From the NCBI GenBank assembly GCA_902627735.1, contig CACOKI010000004.1, positions 19,900 through 83,899 on the forward strand: DNA of 64,000 nucleotides. The letters run 5' to 3'. Positions 52,390 to 53,923 of the stretch are shown piece by piece (within the stretch, counting starts at the first letter, position 1; every line of letters starts with the position of its first letter). The notes under the pieces were generated by a model. That model ran no database searches. It saw only the letters and a list, made by a program, of their open reading frames with translations, and was not told where the DNA came from. Source of the DNA: an uncultured Pelagibacteraceae bacterium. GTDB taxonomy: Bacteria > Pseudomonadota > Alphaproteobacteria > Pelagibacterales > Pelagibacteraceae. The translations under genes and the position numbers were made by a program.

Positions 52390-52440
52390 AATGCGAGGAT
52401 TAATACTATTTAAAAATATAAAGTCAAATTTTAAATTATG

Positions 52441-52468
52441 TTGAATTAATTAATTTTTTTGATATAAA
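52441..52468 (+). promoter_or_regulatory. putative metY promoter (-35 TTGAAT, 16 nt, -10 TATAAA)
   Basis: TTGAAT 52441-52446, TATAAA 52463-52468; predicted start at about 52474-52476. Confidence 0.5.
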
Positions 52469-52472
52469 GACA

Positions 52473-52518
52473 TTAGCCGATTTGTACCTTATTGCTGGCT
52501 TTGTATGCTAAAAAGGTT
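52473..52518 (+). promoter_or_regulatory. SAM-II-like riboswitch aptamer
   Basis: tAGCCGATTTGTACCTTATTGCTGGCTTTGTATGCTAAAAAGGT: P1 AGCC/GGCT (52475-52478/52497-52500), pseudoknot ACCTT/AAGGT (52486-52490/52513-52517), GCTAAAAAGG signature. Confidence 0.75.
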
Positions 52519-52532
52519 TTCACAAACACTGT

Positions 52533-52590
52533 CGGTAGGTATTTGAACTGTATTGTACACCTTGCATAAAGCTAAAGTACTAAAAAGGAG
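52533..52590 (+). promoter_or_regulatory. SAM-V-like riboswitch aptamer directly before the metY Shine-Dalgarno
   Basis: AGGT(52537-52540)ATTTGAACTGTATTGTACACCT(52559-52562)TGCATAAAGCTAAAGTACTAAAAAGGAG; same spacing logic as the first module. SD AGGAG 52586-52590. Confidence 0.65.
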
Positions 52591-52594
52591 CAAA

Positions 52595-53923
52595 ATGAGT
52601 AAAAAAAGAAATAACCCAGAAACTATAGCCATTCATGGGGGTGACTATAGAAGTGACCCAACCACAAATGCGGTTGCGGTTCCAATTTATAAAACTACTT
52701 CATATCAATTCCAGAGTACAGATCATGCTGCTAATCTTTTTGCATTAAAAGAATTTGGCAACATTTACACTAGAATTATGAATCCAACTAATGATGTTCT
52801 TGAAAAAAGAATTGCATCTTTAGAAGGAGGATTGGCGTGCCTAACAGTATCTTCTGGTCAGACAGCATCTTCTTTTGCAATTTTAAATGTTGCACAAGCT
52901 GGTGATAATATCGTTAGCTCTACTGATCTTTATGGTGGAACCGTATCCTTATTTACACACACTTTGAGTAAACTTGGTGTTGAAATTAGATATGCAGATC
53001 CATCAGATCCAAGTAACTTTGAAAAATTAATAGATGATAAGACTAGAGCTTTTTATGGTGAAACATTACCTAATCCATATTTAAGAGTTTTTCCTATTAA
53101 AGAAGTTTCAGATATAGGTAGAAAATATAATATCCCCTTAATAATGGATAATACAGCCGCTCCTGTAATTTGTAAACCAATTGAACATGGTGCTGCAATT
53201 GTAATTCATTCATTAACTAAATACATTGGTGGACATGGAACTGCAGTTGCTGGAAGTATAGTTGATAGTGGTAATTTTGATTGGACAGCAGATCCTAAAA
53301 GACAACCTTTGTTTAATGAGCCAGATGCTAGCTATGGAGGAGCTATTTGGGGGAAGGCTGTTCCTGAATTAACAGGCGCAAACATACCTTTTGCTGTAAG
53401 AGCAAGAGTATGTTTATTAAGAGACCTTGGTTCTGCATTGGCACCTGACAATGCTTTTGCAATAATTCAAGGTTTAGAAACTGTTGCACTTAGAATGAAA
53501 CAACACTGTGAGAATGCTGAAAAAGTAGTTAATTTCTTAAAAAAACATAAAGAAATAACAAAAGTTATTTATTCTACTGAACATACCAAATCTATATCAG
53601 ATAGAGCTAAAAAATATCTAAGAGGTGGAAATGGTCCAATGGTAGGTATAGAACTTAAAGGTGGTATTGAAGCTGGTAAAAAATTTATAGAATCATTAAA
53701 AATGTTTTATCATGTTGCTAATATTGGAGATGTAAGAAGTTTAGCTATTCATCCTGCAAGCACTACTCATAGTCAACTAAATGAAAAGGAACTTAAAGCA
53801 TCAGGAGTTACACAAAGTTACGTAAGACTTTGTATAGGCATAGAACATATTGATGATATTATTGAAGATTTAGATCAAGCTTTGAATAAATCTTCTAAAG
53901 GAAATTTAAAAGCTGTTAGTTAA
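52595..53923 (+). CDS. metY: O-acetylhomoserine sulfhydrylase / Cys-Met metabolism PLP enzyme
   Basis: NPETIAIHGGDYRSDPTTNAVAVPIYKTTSYQF, IVIHSLTKYIGGHGT; ATG at 52595 preferred over 52553 because the upstream stretch is the RNA leader. Confidence 0.92.
   Translation: MSKKRNNPETIAIHGGDYRSDPTTNAVAVPIYKTTSYQFQSTDHAANLFALKEFGNIYTRIMNPTNDVLEKRIASLEGGLACLTVSSGQTASSFAILNVAQAGDNIVSSTDLYGGTVSLFTHTLSKLGVEIRYADPSDPSNFEKLIDDKTRAFYGETLPNPYLRVFPIKEVSDIGRKYNIPLIMDNTAAPVICKPIEHGAAIVIHSLTKYIGGHGTAVAGSIVDSGNFDWTADPKRQPLFNEPDASYGGAIWGKAVPELTGANIPFAVRARVCLLRDLGSALAPDNAFAIIQGLETVALRMKQHCENAEKVVNFLKKHKEITKVIYSTEHTKSISDRAKKYLRGGNGPMVGIELKGGIEAGKKFIESLKMFYHVANIGDVRSLAIHPASTTHSQLNEKELKASGVTQSYVRLCIGIEHIDDIIEDLDQALNKSSKGNLKAVS

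Follow-up and report, generated by a model that had tools for sequence, protein, structure and literature searches.

A SAM-II-like module and a SAM-V riboswitch in tandem, without a terminator, in the metY leader of a SAR11 bacterium

In the window analysed here, a stretch of 64,000 nucleotides from an uncultured Pelagibacteraceae bacterium (contig CACOKI010000004.1), the gene metY is preceded by a leader in which the same strings, ATTTG-N6-ATTG and CTAAAAAGG, occur twice in succession. This repetition raises the question of whether the gene is controlled by one sensor of S-adenosylmethionine (SAM) or by two, and whether two sensors would act independently or together. A preliminary description of this DNA had read the leader as a SAM-II-like aptamer followed by a SAM-V aptamer and had supposed a SAR11 origin. 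Its strings, pairings and coordinates were all correct for both modules (Table 1), and the origin was confirmed as well; the closest named protein of the encoded MetY belongs to the uncultured Pelagibacteraceae bacterium isolate AG-359-D09 (100% identity).

Table 1. Features of the metY leader and gene (positions are those of the window)
Feature	Position	Strand	Details
Sigma-70-like promoter	52441..52468	+	-35 TTGAAT 52441-52446, 16-nt spacer, extended -10 TGATATAAA 52460-52468
Module 1, compact SAM-II-like aptamer	52475..52518	+	41.6 bits, E=7e-8, clade-excluding covariance model
Module 1 P1 AGCC/GGCU	52475-52478/52497-52500	+	
Module 1 strings (putative pocket AUUU..AUUG)	52480-52484 (ATTTG), 52491-52494 (ATTG), 52508-52516 (CTAAAAAGG)	+	N6 between ATTTG and ATTG
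Module 1 pseudoknot P2a ACCUU/AAGGU	52486-52490/52513-52517	+	
Module 1 P2b GC/GC	52494-52495/52507-52508	+	
Module 1 core GCUAAA	52507-52512	+	
Module 2, SAM-V riboswitch RF01826	52528..52593	+	84 bits, cut-off 41
Linker element UCGGU	52532..52536	+	complementary to module 1 GCCGA 52476-52480
SAM-V P1 AGGU/ACCU	52537-52540/52559-52562	+	
Module 2 strings	52541-52545 (ATTTG), 52552-52555 (ATTG), 52580-52588 (CTAAAAAGG)	+	N6 between ATTTG and ATTG
SAM-V P2b GUAC/GUAC	52555-52558/52577-52580	+	
SAM-V P3 GC/GC	52564-52565/52571-52572	+	
metY Shine-Dalgarno AGGAG	52586..52590	+	within SAM-V 3' strand; 4 nt before ATG 52595-52597
metY, O-acetylhomoserine sulfhydrylase	52595..53923	+	TIGR01326 573 bits, cut-off 495

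The metY locus and its SAM-V riboswitch

On its upstream side, metY has rplM as a divergent neighbour, the same synteny as that of SAR11_1029 and SAR11_1030 in Candidatus Pelagibacter ubique HTCC1062 (PMC2704228). The metY transcript is predicted to start at about position 52475, downstream of a sigma-70-like promoter. A strict consensus promoter scan, which demands a T at the last -10 position, did not list this promoter; a TTG together with a TG..TA.AA box is found at the same upstream distance in 128 distinct leaders, and this conserved spacing agrees with the earlier placement of the transcript 5' end at the first aptamer.

The downstream module (module 2) is the sole Rfam riboswitch match in the scan of the window, where it covers the full length of the SAM-V model RF01826 (model positions 1-66; E=2e-12) with a score well above the cut-off, as well as the one match of this model in the whole genome, and its earlier assignment to SAM-V therefore holds. 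As in SAM-V, its 3' pseudoknot strand holds a Shine-Dalgarno (SD) sequence, which lies next to the ATG of a gene for methionine synthesis. Taken alone, module 2 differs in nothing of substance from the SAM-V element of Candidatus Pelagibacter ubique metY, with which it shares sequence, structure, gene, SD overlap and the rplM/metY synteny (PMC2704228). The SAM-V homologues of HTCC1062 metY and bhmT bind SAM and not SAH (PMC6061858), and by analogy with them module 2 would bind SAM and turn translation off, as is established for SAM-V elsewhere. A further proposal, that CCTT (52560-52563) could pair with the SD as an on/off switch, did not survive the comparison: CCT belongs to the SAM-V P1, T52563 as the fourth base differs among relatives, and in the published model it is P2a that sequesters the SD, in the SAM-bound state (PMC6061858).

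SAM-V was matched in 52 of 147 genomes from the order and in 183 of 399 from the genus; regions upstream of these matches were sampled, and 164 distinct leaders were analysed. Several other SAM-V elements were met in this comparison. The HTCC1062-like genome (G011), whose riboswitch coordinates agree with the published table (PMC2704228), contains a SAM-V element of 57.6 bits (L068, 1126163-1126227) about 20 nt past the stop codon of the upstream gene, which has no upstream module and apparently serves osmC within the bhmT gene cluster. In the bhmT leaders L017 (G011, around 1127359), L121, L126 and L164, the SAM-V SD precedes a short open reading frame of about 23 codons (MNITSYYFVTFFLQNKRKKNEHK, then stop), the last bases of which overlap the start of bhmT, so that the two may be translationally coupled; this frame contains CCTTTTTTCTCC, which is close to the complement of the SD region GGAGAAAAGAGG. 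SAM-V-like elements of 33.6-43 bits also occur in alphaproteobacteria other than SAR11 (L190, L191, L195 (family f51), L192, L193), and in most of them the core has the variant form CAGATTGTGC and the ATG is preceded by ACTAAAGAGAGGA; these elements probably form a SAM-V subgroup mostly missed by RF01826.

A SAM-II-like module at the 5' end of the leader

Module 1 was scored with a covariance model of 35 related modules from which the window's own clade had been left out; the rest of the genome holds nothing that this model matches credibly (the next best hit reaches 12.7 bits). The form to which it belongs, hereafter type A, can be written xGCC-GAUUUG-N5/6-AUUGC-x-GGC-L3-GCUAAA-N2-GGA, preceding SAM-V, and is present in 134 of the 164 distinct leaders (127 metY and 7 mmuM), all in the window's genus, the metY and mmuM leaders of HTCC1062 carrying it as well (L039 and L044). 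In a second set, partly overlapping the first, 79 of 80 named SAR11 metY loci match the type-A pattern and the 80th is a one-base variant. On metY, the type-A module is nearly universal in the window's genus.

The pocket residues UUU, AUUG and UAAA are invariant in the 134 leaders, the motif having been part of the search pattern; one further leader (L318) was seen to depart from it, in a flanking base. The SAM contacts in the SAM-V crystal structure are U8, U9, U20, G21, U47, A48 and A50 (PMC6061858; the SAM-II contact list is given in PMC11508383), and their counterparts, as we map them (AUUU, AUUG and CUAAA), are all present in module 1 and invariant. L3, the linker and the two bases that follow GCUAAA, by contrast, differ among type-A leaders. 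The P1/P2 pairs of an H-type pseudoknot can form in nearly all of the 134 leaders, with compensating changes at two positions only, one in P2a (U-A to A-U in the window's clade) and one in P1 (G-C to A-U in HTCC1062 mmuM); indeed, P1 is nearly invariant and covariation is therefore scant. The fourth P1 pair is not consistently paired across leaders. Comparison of the leaders shows module 1 to be real, conserved and co-inherited with SAM-V, and it likely senses SAM. A leader peptide or second start after the AAGGA of module 1 was considered and rejected, as no start codon lies at a suitable distance.

With the Rfam SAM-II model RF00521, even a permissive scan of 52400-52620, with E values of up to 10 allowed, returned nothing, and because module 1 misses the gathering threshold of 36 bits, we do not assign it to RF00521. 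The preliminary description had taken a missing covariance match as decisive against a module, which is misleading in this case: the published bhmT and metX SAM-II elements reach only 15.5 and 26.7 bits in the HTCC1062-like genome and are missed at the same cut-off. SAM-II elements of SAR11 thus generally escape the Rfam model, which lacks sensitivity in this lineage. A model built from type A only gave 45 strong matches in the 147 genomes, all of them lying immediately 5' of a SAM-V match, and 17 weaker ones in other genera (E<=0.006). Among the latter, seven of the eight inspected precede metX and resemble SAM-II, and one coincides with an RF00521 match (G034 C12). Two metX elements of SAR11 with a short L3 (L227 and L228) are closely similar to module 1. 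The SAM-II that RF00521 describes on metX has the pocket GAUUU...AUUGC...GCUAAA and the pseudoknot P2a in common with module 1, which differs from it in scoring below the cut-off, in a P1 cut to GCC/GGC, and in having neither a terminator nor an SD of its own. On these similarities, module 1 is SAM-II-like, and the proposal of a SAM-II-like aptamer directly upstream of SAM-V is upheld both by the score of the clade-excluding model and by the kinship with metX elements.

We give almost no credence to the idea that module 1 is instead a duplicated SAM-V. The strings repeated in the two modules would be expected from a duplication, and the SAM-II and SAM-V cores are almost superimposable (PMC6061858), but the module 1 model that retrieves metX SAM-II finds no SAM-V in 147 genomes, and the GAUUU/AUUGC flanks, the short L3 without P3 and the P2a of 3-5 bp all follow SAM-II. 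Apart from module 1, another SAM-II-like element (L234; G027 C1, around 87693) has GGAGG as its P2a 3' strand, which is also an SD a few bases before an ATG; it may be a SAM-II of the translational kind, from a second family of the order.

A tandem without a terminator and its linker

A tandem of SAM-II and SAM-V upstream of bhmT was reportedly described in Poiata 2009, as later papers have it. In the original 120 SAM-II/SAM-V tandems, SAM-II always stands before an intrinsic terminator, and 149 tandems have been counted (PMC9481103, a 2022 review). The bhmT tandem to which the preliminary description had likened the metY leader is thus a published precedent, but equating the two misses the form found on metY and mmuM. 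Both share the order of a SAM-II-like element followed by SAM-V, the ligand class and SAR11 hosts (PMC9481103, PMC11508383), whereas the metY/mmuM form has no terminator, a shorter module 1 with a P1 of 3-4 bp, and a different linker, with UCGGY. No intrinsic terminator was found between the modules in the window, and the same detector found one in 0 of the 134 type-A leaders, in contrast to 23 of 23 terminator-type tandems. The translational SAM-II of Sinorhizobium metA (PMC9373788) resembles the metY leader as a SAM-II aptamer tied to translation and mRNA stability; however, it is a single aptamer that contains the SD, with a terminator downstream, whereas the metY SD lies in the second aptamer.

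For HTCC1062, the accessible papers list SAM-II only on bhmT and metX and treat the metY and mmuM leaders as SAM-V only (PMC2704228, PMC5069961). Each of the two parts falls into a known class, and tandems as such have been published; nevertheless, the terminator-less SAM-II-like/SAM-V tandem with a co-conserved linker on metY and mmuM throughout the genus appears to be new in the accessible literature, although its priority is not certain.

Leaders of the terminator type have CGCUUUAG in the terminator's 5' arm; it is the complement of GCUAAAGCG in the aptamer (exactly so in 17 of 24 leaders), and this predicted pairing is ordinary antiterminator logic. The SAM-II domain of the bhmT tandem is unresponsive to SAM in the full-length RNA (PMC11508383), and the same pairing could be the reason why the linker silences it there. 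In the sister genus g5, metY leaders carry a terminator-type SAM-II before SAM-V; therefore, type A may have arisen by terminator loss. In another alphaproteobacterial family, a SAM-II-like element with a terminator precedes a SAM-V-like element that scores 34.9 bits, below the cut-off (L194, G611 C19), and from this case SAM-II/SAM-V tandems seem to exist outside Pelagibacterales.

The type-A linker is about 20 nt long and ends in UCGGY, which directly abuts the SAM-V P1; the complementary GCCGA comprises the 5' strand of module 1 P1 and the start of the ligand loop. Of 121 distinct type-A leaders, 111 contain TCGGY, versus 0 of 27 complete leaders that lack module 1; one further leader has TCGGY, but its sequence stops short of the place of module 1. 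Two leaders from the window's genus (L069 and L070, of G036 and G086) have a metY SAM-V with neither the upstream aptamer nor TCGGY, and constitute a natural control for the tandem. The complementarity of the linker to the 5' strand of module 1 beats that of shuffled linkers in 37 of 40 representatives; the corresponding figures are 1 and 0 of 40 for the remaining two parts of module 1 and 9 of 40 for a reversed-strand control. Four of the seven mmuM leaders pass this test, two of these in another register (L050 and L066), and in some mmuM linkers the complementarity is weak or none. The linker helix shows no two-sided covariation and no excess over shuffles, the former because both partners are nearly fixed, and its extension beyond GCCGA/UCGGY is not consistently paired. 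Folding without pseudoknots gave the helix a mean probability of 0.74 in the 30 leaders scored and did not favour it in the leader of the window. Therefore, we regard the UCGGY/GCCGA helix as well motivated but not proven.

Regulatory readings of the tandem

The reading that we prefer, and consider probable, is that in the metY leader two SAM sensors act on a single translational OFF switch and that the linker competes with the first aptamer. The SAM-II-like aptamer would stand at the transcript 5' end, followed by the SAM-V whose 3' strand holds the metY SD, and SAM binding to the latter would close the pseudoknot over the SD and turn translation off. Module 1 would also bind SAM: in its absence, UCGGY would pair with GCCGA and dissolve P1 and the ligand loop, while SAM caught early in transcription would keep module 1 folded and the linker free. 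Since UCGGY abuts the SAM-V P1, the folding of SAM-V is expected to depend in part on the state of module 1, and because both sensors would share one translational OFF platform, the response to SAM should be sharper or earlier than that of SAM-V alone. When 24 leaders were folded with a model without pseudoknots, module 1 did not change SD accessibility in any consistent way. A more specific version, in which the leader is a natural dual-aptamer SAM switch found throughout the genus and physically coupled, terminator-less and with a shared translational platform, its linker UCGGY competing with the first aptamer, is put forward tentatively and may well prove otherwise; in this respect the metY/mmuM form would differ from the bhmT tandem, which is an independent two-level system. 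As for the dual-layer SAM control of metY suggested earlier, its two modules stand as conserved elements and sensing by the first is likely, but the CCTT/SD switch has to be dropped.

Module 1 could instead act at the mRNA level, early SAM capture leading to pausing, Rho-dependent termination or 5' decay, with the linker helix shielding the transcript at low SAM and SAM-V controlling translation separately. Such an action would account for the response of HTCC1062 to sulfur limitation, which raises metY mRNA 7.1-fold and mmuM mRNA 6.1-fold but MetY protein only 2.2-fold, a translational switch alone having been assigned to these two genes despite the rise in mRNA (PMC5069961). The position of module 1 at the predicted transcript 5' end and the effect of a Sinorhizobium SAM-II element on mRNA stability (PMC9373788) point in the same direction. 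Nevertheless, none of the 134 type-A leaders has an intrinsic terminator and translational repression by itself can lower mRNA, and we consider this explanation unlikely. We find it quite improbable that module 1 is a remnant or passenger, namely a SAM-II after terminator loss, retained through linkage or because it stabilises the 5' end and having no SAM-dependent output, so that SAM-V would do all the regulation. The terminator-type metY leaders of genus g5 do offer a plausible ancestor, SAM-V does occur elsewhere without a type-A module, and the unresponsive SAM-II domain of the full-length bhmT tandem would be a parallel (PMC11508383). However, neutral remnants should decay in compact, AT-rich genomes, whereas module 1 keeps its pocket residues invariant between variable flanks in 134 distinct leaders, precedes two different genes, and is co-conserved with the linker element.

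If module 1 does sense SAM, as our preferred reading of two sensors on one translational switch holds, the in vitro constants of the isolated SAM-V (4.4-15 uM) leave half of the switch undescribed, and the increase in metY and mmuM mRNA under sulfur limitation gains a testable cause. In SAR11, MetY converts methanethiol to methionine directly, and since this abundant ocean lineage depends on reduced sulfur, the control of metY matters for marine sulfur use.
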